Positions 10,526-54,243 of a stretch of 64,000 nucleotides of DNA are shown here, piece after piece. The stretch lies in contig NZ_KB913017.1 of assembly GCF_000383975.1 (NCBI RefSeq), positions 3,882,265 to 3,946,264 on the forward strand, written 5' to 3'. This DNA comes from Natronorubrum tibetense GA33. GTDB taxonomy: Archaea > Halobacteriota > Halobacteria > Halobacteriales > Natrialbaceae. The notes below the pieces were generated by a model. It was not told the origin of the DNA. It ran no database searches and saw only the letters and a program-made list of their open reading frames with translations. The number at the start of each line of letters is the position of its first letter. Positions within the stretch are counted from its first letter, which is position 1. The position numbers were made by a program, and so were the translations under genes.

Positions 10526-12475
10526 TCAAAACGCCGCTGTGAATAGATTCCAGTACCACGCTTGCCAGAGTAAGACGAGAAGTGCCATTACCAGCGTGGT
10601 CAGATATACCAGACCGTACCGGCTAGTTGATCCTGCATCGAGGTCGCGGGCGACGAAAACTCGTTGCCACTCAATGCCAACCGAGACCACCGTGACTACG
10701 GCTCCGATGGCCAAGACGTACAGCAGCACGAACGTCAGCCGTTGCCAGAGCGAGAAGCCGTACACCCAGGACGCCATATCGAACGGCGGATTCAACGCGA
10801 CGCCACCGATAAACGCCACCAGAAGGGCAACACATCCCAAGATTGCGAGGCGAGGGCGGTTCAGATACCCGCGCATCGCTCCCCAACCGCGGTGTCGATA
10901 GGCGTTGATCGGCCAGATGACAATCGTTGAGAGGAGGGTCACAATAACTGCGCCGGCGAGACTGACCTGGAAACCCGCCGTCTCGTACCACGAGAGGCGT
11001 TCGAATGGTGGTGCTGGTGCGTTCATGTAGAGGTAGCCATCTTCGATCGCCACGCTCGTCTGGCCGAAGCTTGCATCATCGTCGGTTTTGGGCTCGAAAA
11101 CGCCCGGTTCGACCTCGACCCATCGAGTCTTCTCACCTGCTGATGATGTGAGTTCGAGCACGCCGTCATCGGTCACGGAGGCCGTCACTGTCCCTTGAGC
11201 CAGCCCCAGGAACTTTTCGTGTGTCGTCTGGAACGTTGTCATCCGGTACTCCCCGGCGTACTCGTCCGCTCGATCAGCCGTCGCCGGGTCCGATTCGATC
11301 GAACTCTCGGCCGGTACGAATCGCTCGTCGATGAATCCGTCGAGGACATCGTCGAAGGGTGCCATCGAATTGAAGCTCACGAAGAGACCAACGTCGTGTT
11401 CGGGAAACAAGACGAACAACGTGTGAAAGTACTCGGTTCCACCGGTATGCATGACAAGTTGCTCGCCACGATATTCGCTCAACATATACCCGTATCCCAA
11501 TCCTTGTACACCTGGATGATTCGTCGCCTGCTGATCGAACATCTCCACGACTGACGCAGGCTCGAGGATCTGGACATTTTCACCGTCGTGTTCGACTGCT
11601 CCGTCCTGGAGTTTAGCGAGCGCAAATGCACCCATGTCGGGTCCGGTGGCACTCACCGAACCAGCTGGCGGAATACCAACGATCGTCGGATCACGCGTTT
11701 CGAACCCGTCGTCGACCGGGACGTGCCCCTTCGAAAGCGTTCGGTCTTCTGGAGCGGGTTGGACAAACGTGGCGCTGTCCATCCCCAGTGGGTTGAAAAT
11801 TTCGTCCTCAATGTGGGACTCGAGGGGTTTGCCGTACGCTTCCTGAACGACGAGGCCGGCAAGGACGGTACCGTGGTTCGAATACGAGATCGTCTCGCCA
11901 GGCTCCCAGATCTGTGGCGGCATCTCCGATTCGAGTTTTTCTTCCCATTCATCGATCTCGCTGTGTTCCTGGACGAAGATCCCTTCGAAGCGGTCATCGT
12001 ATCCTCCTGAGTGCGTTGCAAGGTGTGCAAGCGTTACCTCGTCGTCGCCTTCGAACTCGTAGGCATCGAGGTACGTCCCGACTGGTTCATCGAGGTCGAG
12101 CGTGCCATCTTCTACGCCCTGCATTACCGCGGTCCAGACCAGCAATTTCGAGACCGATCCGATCATGAAGGAGGTTTCATCCGGATCGACAGACTCACCC
12201 GTCTCGTAGTCGGCATACCCATAGCCCTCAGCGTGGACGATCTCGTCTCCCTCCACGTACGCGACCGTTGCCCCTGCCACGTCGTGTTCAGTTATCGTCT
12301 CCTCAATCATCGAATCGATAACCTTCGGTTCAAGTGGTTCGTCACCATCCACTTCTTGTGCATCCGCAGCGTCCCCGGTACCCACTGCGAATGGCCCAAT
12401 CATAGCCATTGCAAGAAGTACACAAATCGTTAGAACGGTCGCGTTAGAGTTGAACTGCATGTGCGTAGACCCCAT
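10526..12475 (-). CDS. Serine beta-lactamase-family hydrolase with C-terminal membrane domain
   Basis: 649 residues. Signal-anchor at about 14-35, then a class C beta-lactamase/PBP-like domain with SVSK (S107-x-x-K110), YSN (198-200) and HTG (343-345), i.e. nucleophile and base in canonical order. A beta-rich linker follows (about 400-485) and then four hydrophobic segments at the C-terminus. The catalytic domain should face outside the cell. Archaea lack peptidoglycan, so the substrate is probably a D-amino-acid peptide or an ester. A TATA-like ATCGATATAG near 12501-12510 fits transcription starting just before the ATG at 12475. Flanking inverted repeats and a neighbouring tnpB suggest an accessory gene. 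Confidence 0.88.
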   Translation of the reverse strand: MGSTHMQFNSNATVLTICVLLAMAMIGPFAVGTGDAADAQEVDGDEPLEPKVIDSMIEETITEHDVAGATVAYVEGDEIVHAEGYGYADYETGESVDPDETSFMIGSVSKLLVWTAVMQGVEDGTLDLDEPVGTYLDAYEFEGDDEVTLAHLATHSGGYDDRFEGIFVQEHSEIDEWEEKLESEMPPQIWEPGETISYSNHGTVLAGLVVQEAYGKPLESHIEDEIFNPLGMDSATFVQPAPEDRTLSKGHVPVDDGFETRDPTIVGIPPAGSVSATGPDMGAFALAKLQDGAVEHDGENVQILEPASVVEMFDQQATNHPGVQGLGYGYMLSEYRGEQLVMHTGGTEYFHTLFVLFPEHDVGLFVSFNSMAPFDDVLDGFIDERFVPAESSIESDPATADRADEYAGEYRMTTFQTTHEKFLGLAQGTVTASVTDDGVLELTSSAGEKTRWVEVEPGVFEPKTDDDASFGQTSVAIEDGYLYMNAPAPPFERLSWYETAGFQVSLAGAVIVTLLSTIVIWPINAYRHRGWGAMRGYLNRPRLAILGCVALLVAFIGGVALNPPFDMASWVYGFSLWQRLTFVLLYVLAIGAVVTVVSVGIEWQRVFVARDLDAGSTSRYGLVYLTTLVMALLVLLWQAWYWNLFTAAF

Positions 12476-12637
12476 TGGTTAGACTGAGTAGGCGAGTGAA
12501 ATCGATATAGGGCTATTGCTGGTTCTCTTCGTATAGGAAATACAGAAAGTACCGGGTTAATATGGAGTAGTTCTGTTGGAACCCTACTCCTCAGCCGTAT
12601 TGTAACTTGGGCTACACGCACAGTATGGATGCAGAAG

Positions 12638-12836
12638 TACCTTTTTCCGCCTCGGGATTCCTCACTTCGTTCGGAACCGCTCTCTGCTCACGGGCACGAA
12701 GTGCCCGTTCGCACGGCTCGCGGGACCTTTGGTCCCGCGCTGGGCGCAAAAATCTACGCTAAAAAGGCCGCTCGCTCCCGTTGGTCGCTCGCGGGTGCTG
12801 CGCTTGTGGCTCGACCGCAGCGGTAACTCCCTACCC
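12638..12836 (-). repeat. Dispersed noncoding repeat, copy 1
   Basis: Matches 45335-45473 in reverse orientation. The shared part includes GGCGCAAAAATCTACGCTAA, followed by AAAGGCCGCTCGCTCCCG, TTGGTCGCTCGCGG and CCGCAGCGGTAA; copy 1 has about 60-80 extra bases in the middle (about 12670-12748). Read on the minus strand, it lies downstream of tnpB and upstream of the serine hydrolase gene. Confidence 0.85.
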
Positions 12837-12876
12837 TGTACTGAGCATCCGCCCCTCCGCGTTGATCGCGCTCTGA

Positions 12877-12908
12877 CTCGTGCGACATTCACGCTCTGTA
12901 TTCAGCAC
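12877..12908 (-). repeat. Right arm of a diverged 32-bp inverted-repeat pair
   Basis: Reverse complement begins GTGCTGAATACA and ends CACGAG, matching 10466-10497 at 25 of 32 positions. Confidence 0.6.
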
Positions 12909-12974
12909 AGTTCTCACAATATCACTGAGATTTGGTGGAAGTTACAGCGATAAGTTTTCCCAGCGAGTCAACTA

Positions 12975-13023
12975 CCCCACCCTACTTCGCTCACCCTGAC
13001 GGGTTCGCTCGTGGAGGGTGGGG
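12975..13023 (-). ncRNA. Right-end hairpin / guide-RNA 3' part of the first tnpB element
   Basis: Nested structure overlapping the 3' end of tnpB: outer 9-bp stem CCCCACCCT (12975-12983) with AGGGTGGGG (13015-13023), inner ACCC-TGAC-GGGT stem (12993-13004). IS200/IS605-type right ends encode such structures, transcribed as omegaRNA (called sotRNA in haloarchaea). A guide would lie to the left of about 12970. Transcript ends are inferred. Confidence 0.6.
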
Positions 13024-14247
13024 CTTGTCCATGAACTCGGCCTCGAACCCATCCAGGTGGGCGGTGAACCCGCCACTTGGCGTCGCCGTTCCAGACTTCA
13101 GGGCAAGCTGACTGTTGCCCGTCCGCCGAGACGACTGTTGGCCTCGACGGACATACCGTATTCCGATATTTTTCGCTGCGTTGTAATCTGCGTTCGCCTT
13201 CGACTCGCACTTCACACAGTGGAAGTCGTTTCGTGCTGGACGATTCTCGTCTGCTGTGAACCCACACTCGGCGCACCGTTTCGACGTGTACGCTGAACCA
13301 ACTTGCTCCACCGAAACGCCCATCGCTTCGGCCTTGTACTCCACCTGTTCGTACAGCGTTCTGAACGCCCATTTGTGTCCCCACGATGCGCCTGTGCAAT
13401 CGCGGATGTCTGTCAGGTCCTCGAATGCGATCACGTCGCACTCATACCGAAGTGCTTCGTTCACAATTGCATTCGACGCCCGGTGTAGCACGTCCCGGAC
13501 GTACCGGAGTTCCCGGCCACTCGACTGTTCGAGCGTTCGGTGGGCGCTTCGCGTCCCGATCTGTTGGAGTCCACCACGCACTTTCTCAAACTCACGGAGG
13601 TTGTGGGTTAGCTCCCGTCCGCAAAAGAAGTAGGCGGTGCTGGTGACAGCGAGGTTTTCGATACCAAGGTCAACCCCGAGGACCGTTCCGTCCTCGGCGG
13701 TGTTCCTCTCAGCATCGTTCTTGTGTCGGCGGAAGCCGATATGCAGGAAGTAGTCACCGTCACGGGCGGTGAGCGTACTTTCCGTGACGTTCCATGTGTC
13801 TGAATCGAGATACTGCCGTTGGTAGCCATCGTCGGCGTCGGGGAGAGCGAGCTGACATCGGACTCTGCTCTCTGTTGTGGAGAGCGACACGGTATCGTCC
13901 TCAAACAACATCATGGTCCGGGTGTCGTACTTCACTGTGGGTGCAGTGAATGTTGGCTTGCTCACCTTCTTGCCTTTGGACCGACGTTCGATACAGCCGG
14001 TGATGGCTTGGGCGGCTTGGTGGGTAGCGAGAATCGCGTGCTGACTACCGAGGTCGGTTTGTTCGCGTACGTCATCGTAGGCGAGGGGTTGCACGTCGCT
14101 TTTAGCGTTGCATTTTTTCCACGCCATGTCAGTGGCGATTTGACAACCACGCTTCCACTCGGAGATAGTATCTTCGAGAAGGTCGCGTTGCTCGTCCGTG
14201 ATTTCGAGACGAGTGATTGCCGTCCGACGCACGTAGTCGTCTGCCAC
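12991..14247 (-). CDS. tnpB: TnpB, IS200/IS605 (IS1341-type) RNA-guided nuclease
   Basis: 418 residues, full length. RuvC-like catalytic set complete: D193 (GVDLGIENLA), E276 (DVIAFEDLTDI), D354 (ANADYNAAKN). Zinc ribbon C325/C328 and C344/C347 sits between RuvC-II and RuvC-III as in the family; the N-terminal wedge/REC part occupies residues 1-185. No tnpA transposase is adjacent, so this is an IS1341-type solo element. TnpB proteins cut DNA matching an RNA made from the right end of the element; here a nested hairpin overlaps the 3' end of the gene. The ATG at 14247 gives MADDYVRRTAITRL, a normal start. Confidence 0.93.
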   Translation of the reverse strand: MADDYVRRTAITRLEITDEQRDLLEDTISEWKRGCQIATDMAWKKCNAKSDVQPLAYDDVREQTDLGSQHAILATHQAAQAITGCIERRSKGKKVSKPTFTAPTVKYDTRTMMLFEDDTVSLSTTESRVRCQLALPDADDGYQRQYLDSDTWNVTESTLTARDGDYFLHIGFRRHKNDAERNTAEDGTVLGVDLGIENLAVTSTAYFFCGRELTHNLREFEKVRGGLQQIGTRSAHRTLEQSSGRELRYVRDVLHRASNAIVNEALRYECDVIAFEDLTDIRDCTGASWGHKWAFRTLYEQVEYKAEAMGVSVEQVGSAYTSKRCAECGFTADENRPARNDFHCVKCESKANADYNAAKNIGIRYVRRGQQSSRRTGNSQLALKSGTATPSGGFTAHLDGFEAEFMDKPHPPRANPSG

Positions 14248-43349: not shown

Positions 43350-45287
43350 ATGGCCAGCAACAAAATTCTCGGAATCGACCTTGGGACGACGAACAGCGCG
43401 TTCGCGGTGATGGAAGGTGGCGATCCGGAGATCATCGTCAACGCCGAAGGCGAACGGACGACACCCTCCGTCGTCGCCTTTACCGACGACGACGAGCGAC
43501 TCGTCGGCAAACCGGCGAAGAATCAGGCGATTCAGAACCCCGAAAAGACGATCGCCTCGATCAAACGCCACATCGGCGAGGAAGACTATACCGTCGAGGT
43601 AGACGACGAGGAGTACACGCCGGAACAGATCTCGGCGATGATCCTCCAGAAGATCAAACGCGACGCCGAAGACTACCTCGGCGACGAGGTCGAAAAGGCC
43701 GTCATCACGGTCCCTGCGTACTTCTCGGACCGACAGCGCCAGGCGACCAAAGACGCCGGCGAGATTGCCGGCTTCGAGGTCGAGCGCATCATCAACGAGC
43801 CGACGGCCGCGTCGATGGCCTACGGGCTTGACGACGATTCCGACCAGACCGTGCTCGTCTACGACCTCGGTGGCGGTACGTTCGACGTTTCTATTCTCGA
43901 TCTCGGCGGCGGCGTCTACGAAGTCGTCGCAACGAACGGTGACAACGACCTCGGTGGCGACGACTGGGACGGAGCAATCATCGACTGGCTCGCCGACGAG
44001 TTCGAGGCAGAACACGGCATCGACCTCCGCGACGACCGACAGGCCCTCCAGCGGCTCAAAGACGCCGCCGAGGAGGCCAAGATCGAACTCTCGAGTCGGA
44101 AAGAGACCGAGATCAACCTGCCGTTCATCACGGCGACCGACGACGGCCCGATCCACCTTGAGGAATCGATGACGCGAGCCAAGTTCGAGTCGCTCACCAG
44201 CGATCTGATCGATCGCACCGTCGAGCCGACCGAGCAGGCGCTCGAGGACGCGGGCTACGAGAAAGAAGATATCGACGAAGTCCTCCTCGTCGGTGGCTCG
44301 ACCCGAATGCCCCAGGTCGCAGAGAAAGTCGAGGATCTGACTGGCAAGGAACCCCAGAAGAACGTCAACCCCGACGAGGCCGTCTCGCTGGGCGCGGCGA
44401 TTCAGGGCGGCGTCCTCGGCGGCGAGGTCGACGACATCGTGCTGCTCGACGTCACGCCGCTCTCGCTCGGTATCGAGGTCAAGGGCGGCCTCTTCGAGCG
44501 ACTCATCGAGAAGAACACGACGATTCCGACCGAAGAGTCGAAAATCTTCACCACGGCGGCGGACAACCAGACCTCCGTGCAGGTTCGGGTCTTCCAGGGC
44601 GAGCGCGAACTGGCCGAGAAAAACGAAATGCTCGGCGAGTTCCACCTGACCGGCATCCCGCCGGCCCCCGCGGGCACGCCACAGATCGAGGTCACGTTCT
44701 CCATCGACGAGAACGGGATCGTCAACGTGAGCGCCGAGGACAAAGGGACCGGCGAAAGCGAGGAGATCACTATCGAGGGCGGTGCCGGACTCTCCGACAC
44801 CGAGATCGAGAAGATGCAGGCCGAAGCCGAGAAACACGCCGAAGAGGACAAGGAAAAGCGCGAGCGCATCGAGGCCCGCAACACGGCCGAAGCCACGATC
44901 CAGCGCGCCGAAACCCTGCTCGAAGAGAACGAGGATGTCGACGACGACCTCCGCGGCGACATCGAGGCCGCCGTCGAAGATCTCGAGGAGACCATCGACG
45001 ACACCGACGCGGACGCCGACGATATCGAAGCCGCGACCGAGAACCTGAGCAAGGAGCTCCAGGAGATCGGCAAGCAGATCTACCAGGAGGCCGGCGCGGC
45101 GGGCGCTGGCGGTGCCGCAGGCGGCGCGGCCGGCGGTGCGGCTGGCGCAGGCCCCGGTGGCATGGGTGGCGGACCGAACCCAGGCCCAGACGGCGCTGCG
45201 GCCGGCGGCGACGACGGCGAGGAGTACGTTGACGCTGACTTCGAAGATATCGCTGACGAAGTCGAGGACGAAGAAGACGACGAGTAA
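43350..45287 (+). CDS. dnaK: Chaperone DnaK (Hsp70)
   Basis: 645 residues. ATPase domain begins [20 protein letters not shown]; conserved [28 protein letters not shown] and [15 protein letters not shown] all present. The substrate-binding domain starts near [16 protein letters not shown] (about 364); the lid ends in a Gly/Ala-rich stretch and acidic tail ([10 protein letters not shown]). A complete, typical haloarchaeal Hsp70, transcribed with grpE upstream and dnaJ 237 bp downstream. The GGG-rich tail is a spacer rather than an EEVD motif. Confidence 0.98.
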
Positions 45288-45334: not shown

Positions 45335-45473
45335 GCGGTGGTATTACCGCTGCGGGTGAGACACAAGCACTGCAACCGCGAGCGACCAACGGGAGCGAGC
45401 GGCCTTTTTAGCGTAGATTTTTGCGCCGAGTGGTTCCTCGCGAAGCGAGGAATCCCGAGGCGGAAAAAGGTAC
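45335..45473 (+). repeat. Dispersed noncoding repeat, copy 2, in the dnaK-dnaJ gap
   Basis: Matches 12638-12836 (opposite orientation). Contains GGCCTTTTTAGCGTAG and a small hairpin CCTCGC-GAA-GCGAGG (about 45437-45451); copy 1 carries extra sequence in the hairpin region. In dnaK orientation it presents a T5 run after a GC-rich segment, which could terminate or attenuate transcription before dnaJ. Confidence 0.85.
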
Positions 45474-45524
45474 GTTCGGAACGTTCGTTTCAAGTGCCTC
45501 AACCGAGTATCGGTTTGACAACGA

Positions 45525-46694
45525 ATGAGCGAGGACTTCTACGACGCACTCGGCGTGAGCCCTGATGCGTCGACCGAGGACATCAAACAGGCGTACCGGA
45601 AGAAGGCCACGGAGTACCATCCGGACGTCAGCGACGACCCCGATGCCGAAGAAAAGTTCAAGCGGATCCAGAAGGCAAAGCAGGTCCTCACGGACGAGGA
45701 AAAGCGCAAGGCGTACGACCGGATGGGCCACGACCGCTACGAACAGGCCGAAAAACACGGCTTCGACGCCGGCGAGGCGGGCGGCGCCGGCGGGATGGGC
45801 GGCGGACCGTTCGGTGGTATGGGCGGCGGCGGTGGTGGCATGGGCGGCGGCCTTGGCGACATCTTCGAACAGGTCTTCGGCGGCGGTGGCGGCGGCCGCG
45901 GTCGTCGTCGGCCGCGAAAGGGACGGGATCTGCGAACCGAGCTCCGGATCGACCTCGAGGAGGCCTACGACGGCGTCGAAAAGCAATTCACCGTCGAACG
46001 ACCCGAGGAGTGTGACACCTGCGAGGGCGAGGGACATCCGCACGACGCGGATTCGGAGACCTGCCCTGAGTGTCAGGGTCGCGGCCAGGTGACCCAGGTC
46101 CAGCAGACGCCGCTGGGTCGCGTCCAGCAGACGACGGCCTGTCCCCGCTGTGAGGGCGACGGGACGCTGTACTCCGAGAGCTGCGACGACTGTCGCGGCG
46201 AGGGCTACGTCCGGAACGAGGCCTCGTTGACCGTCGACGTCCCGGAGGGCATTCAGGAGGGCCAGACGCTCCGAATGGAAGGCGAGGGCGCACCCAGTCC
46301 CGAAGGCGGTCGTCACGGCGACCTGCTCATCGACGTCTCGATCCGCGAGCACGAGGAGTTCGAACGCGAGGGCGACGACCTCCAGTATCGACTCCCCATC
46401 TCGTTCCCGCAGGCGACGTTCGGCGACACCGTCGAAGTGCCCACCCTCGACGGCGCTGCCGAGTTCGAGATTCCGAAGGGGACCCAGAGCGGCGAGACGT
46501 TCCGCCTCGAGGGCAAGGGGATGCCCCGCCTCCGTCGTCGCGGGCACGGCGACCTCTTCGTGCAGGTCCAGATCGTCACTCCAGACAGCCTGAACGAGGA
46601 CCAGCGCGACGCGCTCGAGGCGTTCGCCGAAGCCGGCGGCGACGAGATCGAGGTCAAAGAAGGCTTCTTCGAGAAGATCAAGCGGGCGTTTTAG
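45525..46694 (+). CDS. dnaJ: Chaperone DnaJ (Hsp40)
   Basis: 389 residues. J domain with HPD at 32-34 (EYHPDVS), G/F-like region (about 83-125, Gly/Met-rich), zinc domain with four CxxCxGxG repeats (CDTCEGEG, CPECQGRG, CPRCEGDG, CDDCRGEG) and C-terminal substrate domains ending in an FEKIKRAF helix. It stimulates DnaK ATPase. It is separated from dnaK by 237 bp containing the dispersed repeat, so it may have its own promoter or be reduced by attenuation. Confidence 0.98.
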   Translation: MSEDFYDALGVSPDASTEDIKQAYRKKATEYHPDVSDDPDAEEKFKRIQKAKQVLTDEEKRKAYDRMGHDRYEQAEKHGFDAGEAGGAGGMGGGPFGGMGGGGGGMGGGLGDIFEQVFGGGGGGRGRRRPRKGRDLRTELRIDLEEAYDGVEKQFTVERPEECDTCEGEGHPHDADSETCPECQGRGQVTQVQQTPLGRVQQTTACPRCEGDGTLYSESCDDCRGEGYVRNEASLTVDVPEGIQEGQTLRMEGEGAPSPEGGRHGDLLIDVSIREHEEFEREGDDLQYRLPISFPQATFGDTVEVPTLDGAAEFEIPKGTQSGETFRLEGKGMPRLRRRGHGDLFVQVQIVTPDSLNEDQRDALEAFAEAGGDEIEVKEGFFEKIKRAF

Positions 46695-52879: not shown

Positions 52880-52946
52880 CCCCGGCGTGAACAGAGAGGG
52901 AGCTTCGCTCCCTCAAGCAGTCGGGCTACGCCCGACGACGCCGGGG
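52880..52946 (-). ncRNA. Guide-RNA (omegaRNA) structure at right end of the second tnpB element
   Basis: Three-way junction 44 bp past the tnpB stop: outer stem CCCCGGCGT (52880-52888) with ACGCCGGGG (52938-52946); inner stem GAGGGAGC/GCTCCCTC (52896-52914) and perfect GTCGGGC/GCCCGAC (52920-52936). This is the typical architecture of IS200/IS605 right ends, transcribed from the tnpB strand. A guide segment would follow on the left, in roughly 52850-52875; transcript ends were not determined. Confidence 0.75.
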
Positions 52947-52989
52947 TTTCCCGTACCGCGTTGGGATATTGGGGTTCGCGGTTCGACCC

Positions 52990-54243
52990 TTATTCTCGCG
53001 GGGCGAAACTGCCCTCGCTACGGTCGAACAAGTGAACCGCTGGCTGTGCCATCCAGCCGTTATCCCTATCCCGGCCACCGTCTGTGGCGAGATTCGGGAG
53101 TACCTTTCGTCGGATATTCTCGGCTCCGTTAACGTCGGCGTTGGCGACCGTTCCACAGTCGTCACAGACGTACAACCCGCGCTCGATACGCTGGTTCCCG
53201 TCTTTCGTTCCACACGACGAACACGTTTTCGAGGTATCACGCTCGGACTTCCGAACGACCTCGATACCTTCGTCCTCAGCCTTGTATTCGAGCATCGACG
53301 TGAAGCGGTCGAACGCCCACCCGTGAAGGTCGAGGTTGCCGTGGTCGCCCCAGTTGCGGGCGTCTCCGTTCTCGTCGTCGCGGATACCGCCAAGGTCGCC
53401 AACCACGATGGTCCCGACGCTACGTTGCTTGCACGCCGAAACGATGTGCTTCGAGAGCGCATGCAAGAAGTGGGTTCGGCGCTCGGTCTGTTTCCGGTCG
53501 AGCCGGCGCGCTTCCCGTGAGGCTGAATGGGCGCACTTCGCCCGTTCTTTGGCGAAGTAGTAGATATCCTCCTTAAGCGCGCCACCGGGATACAACGTAG
53601 CTTCGTCTCCATACGAGACGGTAGCGAAGTTGCATATCCCGAGGTCGATACCGGCGGTTCGGTCGCCCGATGAACGGAATTCGACCTCATGCCGGCAGAC
53701 GATATGCAACCGCCACTCTCCGTGTTCGTAGACCGCACGAACCAGTTGGACGTTCTCGATTTCGGCGTCCGGTCGGGTTTCATATTCGCACAGAAGAAAG
53801 TCCGACCAATGCGCTTTGAGGTTCCGCCCTTTCGAGAGACGGATACGTCCGTTCTTCGAGTCGTGCTTGAAGCCGTCTTCTTTGAACGTGACGGTCGAAC
53901 GGGGGTGGTCGTCGCCGTGTTTTCGGTAGCCGGGCGGATTCGCGTTCTTGTTCCCGTTTCGGCGGTGACCGTACCATGATTTGAACGCCTCAGACAATTC
54001 TTCGAGAACTGCCTGACTTGACTGTGCGTTGAGGTCAGCGTAGCGTTCGTGGTTTTTTAGGTACGACTTGAGCGCGCCTTCGCCGGGAATTGTCCCCGTT
54101 TCGTCCCAAATACGCCCGATGGTCCACCGGGCAACATTCCAGAGTTTCGAGGCGGCGAATCCGAGCGAATCGAGACCGTCGCGGACCTGTTGCTGGTTGC
54201 GTATGGACGCAACGTGGGTCCGGGTGACGGACCTTTTCGCCAT
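52990..54243 (-). CDS. tnpB: TnpB, IS200/IS605 family, with altered RuvC-II motif
   Basis: 417 residues, from a lineage different from the tnpB at 12991. D200 (AGIDLGICNFA) and D370 (ANADVNGAENI) are present, but the RuvC-II motif reads TIVVGDLGGIRDD, with G282 where E is expected (the other TnpB here has AFEDL). Some TnpB clades carry a displaced catalytic glutamate, and nuclease-dead derivatives are known; which applies here is not decided. Zinc ribbon C341/C344 and C360/C363 is intact, and the gene is full length with a good guide-RNA structure downstream. No tnpA nearby. Confidence 0.9.
   Translation of the reverse strand: MAKRSVTRTHVASIRNQQQVRDGLDSLGFAASKLWNVARWTIGRIWDETGTIPGEGALKSYLKNHERYADLNAQSSQAVLEELSEAFKSWYGHRRNGNKNANPPGYRKHGDDHPRSTVTFKEDGFKHDSKNGRIRLSKGRNLKAHWSDFLLCEYETRPDAEIENVQLVRAVYEHGEWRLHIVCRHEVEFRSSGDRTAGIDLGICNFATVSYGDEATLYPGGALKEDIYYFAKERAKCAHSASREARRLDRKQTERRTHFLHALSKHIVSACKQRSVGTIVVGDLGGIRDDENGDARNWGDHGNLDLHGWAFDRFTSMLEYKAEDEGIEVVRKSERDTSKTCSSCGTKDGNQRIERGLYVCDDCGTVANADVNGAENIRRKVLPNLATDGGRDRDNGWMAQPAVHLFDRSEGSFAPRE

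Follow-up and report, generated by a model that had tools for sequence, protein, structure and literature searches.

On sequence evidence, both copies of a noncoding repeat in the window (the whole 64,000-nucleotide stretch of Natronorubrum tibetense GA33 DNA that was analyzed) belong to a real, widespread, and structured element at the 3′ ends of genes in Halobacteria. The best explanation, which we hold to be probable, is that this is a composite RNA 3′-end element of Halobacteria, a putative terminator lying on the strand of the upstream gene.

Anatomy of the two window copies and their relatives

The initial annotation described a match of about 140 bp, in opposite orientations, between a stretch near 12638 and the gap between dnaK and dnaJ. 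BLAST against the own genome bore this out, aligning 12637–12682 (89%) and 12740–12826 (92%) with 45335–45475. The reported variable middle is real, a 57-nt insertion splitting the 12638 copy into two BLAST blocks, and can now be placed in the interior of a hairpin (H2), where this copy carries extra hairpins. Both copies do lie on the coding strand between co-directional genes. One sits between dnaK (43350–45287, + strand) upstream and dnaJ (45525–46694, +) downstream, and the other between tnpB (12991–14247, –) upstream and a gene for a beta-lactamase-family serine hydrolase (10526–12475, –) downstream. The T5 run noted after a GC-rich stretch is present, but it is not the only tract: a second T5 follows 8 nt further on, and an A5 tract is present as well. 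A check on whether only these two copies exist genome-wide returned about 25 related elements in the host genome. Chance homology of the two window stretches was ruled out by the genome-wide and class-wide counts.

On the strand of the upstream gene, the element reads as a GC-rich hairpin (H1), a U5 tract (U1), exactly 8 nt of spacer, a second U5 tract (U2), H2, an A5 tract, and GG-UNN. In the dnaK–dnaJ copy (+ strand), H1 spans 45376–45402 (CCGC-GA-GC-GA-CC-AAC-GG-GA-GC-GA-GCGG), is interrupted only by tandem G·A/A·G mismatches, and pairs in the minimum free energy (MFE) structure. U1 (T5, 45405–45409) lies immediately 3′ of H1 and is followed by the 8-nt spacer AGCGTAGA (45410–45417), U2 (T5, 45418–45422), H2 (45423–45463), and A5 + GG + TAC (45464–45473). 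U2 pairs with the A5 tract in the MFE fold, and H2, with another GA/GA internal loop, forms the interior of a long stem, P2. Spacer nucleotides 4–6 (GTA) pair with the TAC at 45471–45473, a pairing backed by covariation, and this TAC forms the right boundary of the element. In the 12638 copy (– strand), H1 (12768–12794) has the identical sequence, and U1 (12765–12761), the spacer AGCGTAGA (12760–12753), and U2 (12752–12748) together occupy 12748–12765. H2 (12647–12747) is enlarged by the extra hairpins to 101 nt, an expanded module that recurs in loci L005 and L006 and other Natrialbaceae. The closing A5 (12646–12642), GG (12641–12640), and TAC (12639–12637) take up 12637–12646. Upstream of H1, the dnaK–dnaJ copy (45335–45375) and the 12638 copy (12795–12836, CCGCTGCGGT..CAAGCGC-GCACC) have the same subfamily-specific segment, common to the Natrialbaceae subfamily with AGCGTAGA or CATCGAAG spacers. 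Judged by the spacer AGCGTAGA and this common upstream segment, both window copies are members of that subfamily.

Across the family, both hairpins are imperfect inverted repeats; tandem G·A accounts for most of their mismatches, and only on the sense strand. Loop statistics for H1 were taken from a set that had not been selected by H1, as the other locus set had been picked via the 3′ arm of H1. In this set GA/GA loops outnumbered TC/TC loops 45:0 in H1 and 17:0 in H2, compared with 26:24 in other 3′ regions. Spacings between T5 tracts in the host genome showed a sharp peak at exactly 8 nt (about 20 of about 48). When elements were sought with a pattern that starts downstream of U1, a U1 of at least five T stood at exactly the right distance in 25 of 32. 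By these counts U1 is integral to the element, and about a fifth of P2 elements are without a full U1. A T4/T4/A4 subclass with the same spacer pairing was observed in loci L013, L015, L018, L020, L021, L030, and L034, several of which have additional GA-rich hairpins separating H1 from U1. Spacer pairing was kept in seven of eight such variants.

Covariation, folding, and distribution

Covariation was scored in 190 elements with A5-GG. Spacer nucleotide 5 formed a Watson–Crick pair with the first nucleotide after A5-GGU in 184 of them, against 77 expected from composition, and nucleotide 4 did so with the second in 181, against 98 expected. Nucleotide 6 is nearly always A, opposite U, and nucleotides 1–3 showed no pairing excess. 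G·U is almost absent at the two covarying pairs. These pairings imply that a single long stem, P2, is closed by U2 and A5. The 8-nt spacer can be read as a 3-nt linker, three pairs, and a two-nucleotide mismatch. Covariation stops at UNN, and the gene-end copies found elsewhere begin there, which sets the right boundary of the element. In a 34-sequence alignment, 98.3% of cells were paired, compared with 87.2% after shuffling and at most 71% when slid.

The predicted fold of the whole dnaK–dnaJ copy consists of H1 and one long stem that includes the covarying pairs (z = –4.15). The MFE fold of the 12638 copy pairs A5 with U1, not U2. Both U2:A5 and NNA:UNN occurred in the best P2 fold of 204 of 208 elements. 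The sense strand of P2 folded better than the antisense strand in 198 cases and worse in 10, against 99 and 106 in the control. For L011 and L014, shuffled sequences folded as well as the real ones, in slices that missed part of H1 (L011) or the 3′ half (L014). The sense-strand bias and the covariation together argue for a folded single strand and against a double-stranded protein site. Directly before U1, H1 had a mean MFE of –17.2 kcal/mol and a mean z of –1.33, compared with –11.4 kcal/mol and –0.22 in control stretches. As in an intrinsic terminator, a stable hairpin (H1) thus ends within a few nucleotides of a U tract (U1).

The lengths of the tracts vary together. Among 205 elements, U1/U2/A lengths were 5/5/5 in 138 and 6/6/6 in 27. 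Where U2 and A were both 5, U1 was 5 in 138 and 6 in 15; where both were 6, U1 was 5 in 5, 6 in 27, and 7 in 2. Within-genome shuffles matched the U1–U2 covariance in 0 of 5000 trials and the U1–A covariance in 58 of 5000, and U1 length correlates with A mainly via U2. In their matching lengths and their order, the two U tracts and the A tract have the arrangement of an ENE/MALAT1-type triple helix. The coordinated lengths suggest, without proving, U•A-U triples, and from the sequences such a helix in the element is possible. Coordinated C/G substitutions in the tracts, which would correspond to C+·G-C triples, were sought in 292 genomes; central-position variants were absent but for one chance-like match.

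BLAST of the dnaK–dnaJ core against the host genome recovered the 12638 copy, some 14 further good copies, and short matches. A covariance model was built on an alignment of the dnaK–dnaJ copy and copies from other genomes. In the window it recovered 45405–45473 (+, E = 1.9e-11), which belongs to its own training set, and 12765–12637 (–, E = 3.4e-7), which does not, with one further match at E = 0.43. In the host genome it gave 27 places at E ≤ 10, of which about 25 are plausible. The pattern T5N8T5N{26,56}A5GG occurred in 220 of 292 Halobacteria genomes and in 69 of 77 genera; reverse-read controls yielded almost no matches. Carriers among the matches listed include Natrinema, Haloterrigena, Natronococcus, Halococcus, Halobium, Halobellus, Halorhabdus, and Haladaptatus. 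The element is almost entirely lacking in genus g27 (family f4) and in several more f4 genera, so that it can be missing from a given model species. In the phylum outside Halobacteria, pattern matches stayed at control level and were AT-rich and unstructured, as expected of chance. The element was also seen in records L085 and L118 (Actinarchaeum halophilum) and L095 and L099 (YIM strains). Viral contigs gave one match to the strict pattern, and the loose pattern was swamped by AT-rich sequence.

No Rfam family matched at gathering score at the elements or at E ≤ 1 in six loci; the dnaK–dnaJ copy gave only matches at E ≥ 2, far below the cut-off. Elsewhere in the window, Rfam sot0042 (sense overlapping transcript) matched at 52928–53105 (–), at the 3′ end of a second tnpB (52990–54243, –). 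As predicted from their sequences, the elements are a family of folded RNA elements absent from the RNA library and from the literature searched.

Position at gene ends, gain, and loss

Positions relative to genes were taken from a simple codon-usage caller, not curated annotation; raw stop-codon counts were uninformative because stops on both strands rise in AT-richer spacers. With these calls, the upstream neighbor was co-directional in 131 of 174 elements. An opposing downstream gene was found in 111 of 176, its stop codon a median of 9 nt past the A tract (n = 111). This places the element where the upstream gene ends and, where two genes converge, directly against the opposing gene. A U tract thus lies downstream of the gene and on its strand, as in archaeal U-tract terminators. 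The initial proposal of a terminator gains support from this position across Halobacteria and from the hairpin-plus-U5 anatomy. The element is very likely a terminator or other marker of mRNA ends. In Haloferax volcanii, a T5C tract alone ends 95% of reporter transcripts (PMC7237163), and the parts of that study consulted make no mention of an element of such shape.

The end of the upstream gene (X) is often repeated directly after the element (E) as a copy (X′). An X of at least 30 nt recurred as X′ in 51 of 206 elements and in 0 of 224 gene ends without an element. X′ starts at or within a few nucleotides of GGTNN, most commonly 5 nt past the A tract. A second P2 followed X′ in 14 of 55 duplication cases and none in 41. 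At pheT in genus g30, three genomes have gene-X-E-X′ and at least nine have gene-X. At this gene, X and X′ resemble each other more closely inside one genome (0.97) than across genomes (0.87 and 0.83). At a usp-like gene in the same genus, E and X′ occur in ten genomes, some of them decayed, and neither occurs in three; there, X and X′ were more alike within than between genomes only where E is intact. Outside the window copies, a directly duplicated gene end appears, from these comparisons, to accompany gain or loss of the element. The empty sites may be ancestral or may have arisen by deletion between the repeats, and with two possible origins the polarity of gain and loss is not proved. Tandem duplication of a gene 3′ end plus element, or flanking direct repeats, was observed at L014, L027, L054, L068, L079, L100, L102, L177, L355, and others. 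In the own genome (C1:3061229–3061611), a tandem array consists of three 158-bp units, each made up of an spt5/nusG-like gene end and the element, and a decayed fourth.

The element had also been proposed to be mobile, and the idea of a mobile terminator appears largely right. Mobility is supported in part by the quarter of elements with a duplicated gene end, by the empty sites in relatives, and by one copy of the same subfamily in the own genome (L003), which lies inside a 380-bp MITE (L003:1375–1754). This MITE has 16-bp TIRs (GGCTCTGTTGAAATCC, one mismatch) and an 8-bp target-site duplication (GGTAAGCT), with ends that we take to resemble the IS6 type. L008 has TIRs without a target-site duplication. 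The AGCGTAGA subfamily thus appears dispersed, at least once inside a MITE. The claim fared less well at the window copies themselves: no TIR pair was found at the 12638 copy, and no flanking gene-end duplication at either copy. The 12638 copy may be a decayed MITE (12571–12935), a weak suggestion, as TTCTGTTGGAACCCT at 12571 resembles the L003 TIR and the right end is unrecognizable.

At the dnaK–dnaJ site, relatives have the element in a AGCGTAGA- or CATCGAAG-type form or lack it, beside a conserved block before dnaJ. Spacer and 3′ partner changed together at this same site (GTTCG with CATCGAAG, GGTAC with AGCGTAGA). Upstream of dnaJ in L273–L301, the adjacent block GGAACGTTCGTTTCAAGTG was conserved across the family, irrespective of whether the element or a neighboring dnaK is present. 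This conservation fits separate transcription of dnaJ, and the GGAACGTTCGTTTCAAGTG-like block is probably the dnaJ promoter.

Alternative explanations and known systems

As a composite 3′-end element, it would act in steps. RNA polymerase would slow or end at the hairpin-backed U tracts, and transcripts passing them would end just after P2, whose structure would act as a fail-safe at the 3′ side. P2 can form only in transcripts that have run through both U tracts, however, and polymerase stopping simply at the first U5 gives no reason for its conservation. For convergent genes, the opposing one would find its U tract (NNACC-UUUUU) in the complement of A5. With less confidence, U1 might fold back parallel to A5, the orientation required for U•A-U triples, and form them on the U2:A5 helix with spacer nucleotides 1–3 as linker. 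The fixed 8-nt spacing and coordinated tract lengths would follow from this fold-back, and all the evidence for this part of the explanation comes from tract lengths and spacing. The U1–A correlation, which runs mainly via U2, and the fifth of P2 elements without a full U1 count against it. We consider it unlikely that the whole is a class-wide RNA element whose own end, at the 3′ termini of mRNAs, is a U•A-U triple helix and which is acquired, possibly via an RNA intermediate, by an insertion duplicating 30–150 bp of gene tail exactly at its 3′ edge.

An ordinary double U-tract bidirectional terminator, with A5 serving only as the opposing strand's U tract and no triple helix, is a sizable but lesser possibility. 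It overlaps the composite 3′-end element in function and differs in the role of structure. The opposing stops close behind the A tract (median 9 nt, 111 cases) agree with it, as does termination by T5C alone in Haloferax (PMC7237163), but it leaves unexplained the fixed 8-nt spacing, the covariation of spacer nucleotides 4–5 with the 3′ side, the strand-biased folding, and the joint variation of U1 and U2 lengths. A palindrome in double-stranded DNA, serving as the site of a dimeric protein or extruding into a cruciform, would account for half-sites (NNA-xx-TTTTT) identical on both strands and for the near absence of G·U at the covarying pairs. The distance between half-sites ranges from about 25 to about 100 bp, the GA mismatches lie on one strand only, and the sense strand folds better 198:10, all of which make this reading highly improbable.

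The strand-specific hairpins and sharp right edge, the copies starting from GGTNN after 51 of 206 elements against 0 of 224 control ends, and the empty sites in relatives could also point to a primarily mobile element, either REP/BIME-like single-strand DNA or RNA copied into DNA, which inserts at gene ends with a long direct duplication and terminates transcription as a tolerated by-product. Against this, elements within one genome are mostly unrelated in sequence beyond structure, unlike recent mobile copies, and no transposase or reverse transcriptase is linked to them. In addition, a second P2 comes after 14 of 55 copies, a pattern like that of tandem duplication, and E and X′ are kept across species at some sites. 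We judge such an origin improbable. Still less credence goes to a processing site or attenuator controlling the downstream gene, dnaJ. The element does occupy the dnaK–dnaJ gap here and precede dnaJ in at least six of the family genomes examined, but the genes preceding most elements are unrelated, and many elements sit between convergent genes, where nothing downstream could be attenuated.

The usual account of termination in archaea is of a bare U tract in which RNA structure has no part. A 3′-end element whose structure is kept by covariation in most haloarchaeal genera would change this picture for Halobacteria. If a triple helix does form at these mRNA ends, the literature searched holds no archaeal precedent for it. 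Duplication of gene tails at the edge of the element offers a testable route for terminator gain and loss. The element would thus bear on the ending of transcripts in archaea and on the spread of such signals.

The putative terminator shares with bacterial intrinsic terminators a GC-rich hairpin followed by U5 (H1 and U1). Compared with bidirectional bacterial terminators (A-stem-U), it adds a conserved U5-hairpin-A5 stem in reverse order. The ENE/MALAT1 3′-terminal triple helix is built from U-rich motif 1, U-rich motif 2, and an A tract near the RNA 3′ boundary. The order of parts is the same here, but the element would hold at most about five triples, joins its U motifs by an 8-nt connector where ENE/MALAT1 has a stem-loop, and is archaeal. 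REP/BIME sequences are extragenic imperfect palindromes after genes, with strand-specific mismatches and tandem arrays. The element has the same traits, but differs from REP/BIME and RAYT systems in having no identified conserved REP tetranucleotide or linked transposase and in the gene-end duplication at its edge; the gene beside the 12638 copy encodes TnpB, not a REP-type TnpA. Haloarchaeal MITEs, PATEs, and SMRs (PMC3119063) are represented by the L003 copy, which sits in a MITE with TIRs and an 8-bp target-site duplication, whereas the class-wide core has no TIRs of its own. The paired USS/DUS terminators of Haemophilus and Neisseria (PMC1852404) are likewise dispersed inverted repeats that terminate at gene 3′ ends, but they keep a fixed sequence, while the element keeps its structure as its sequence varies. 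Archaeal U-tract terminators (the T stretch or T5C of H. volcanii, PMC7237163, and aCPSF1-linked U tracts, PMC8716108), resemble the element in placing U5 downstream of genes. They consist of a U tract alone, whereas the element has two U tracts at a fixed spacing, tied to hairpins and an A tract by covariation.
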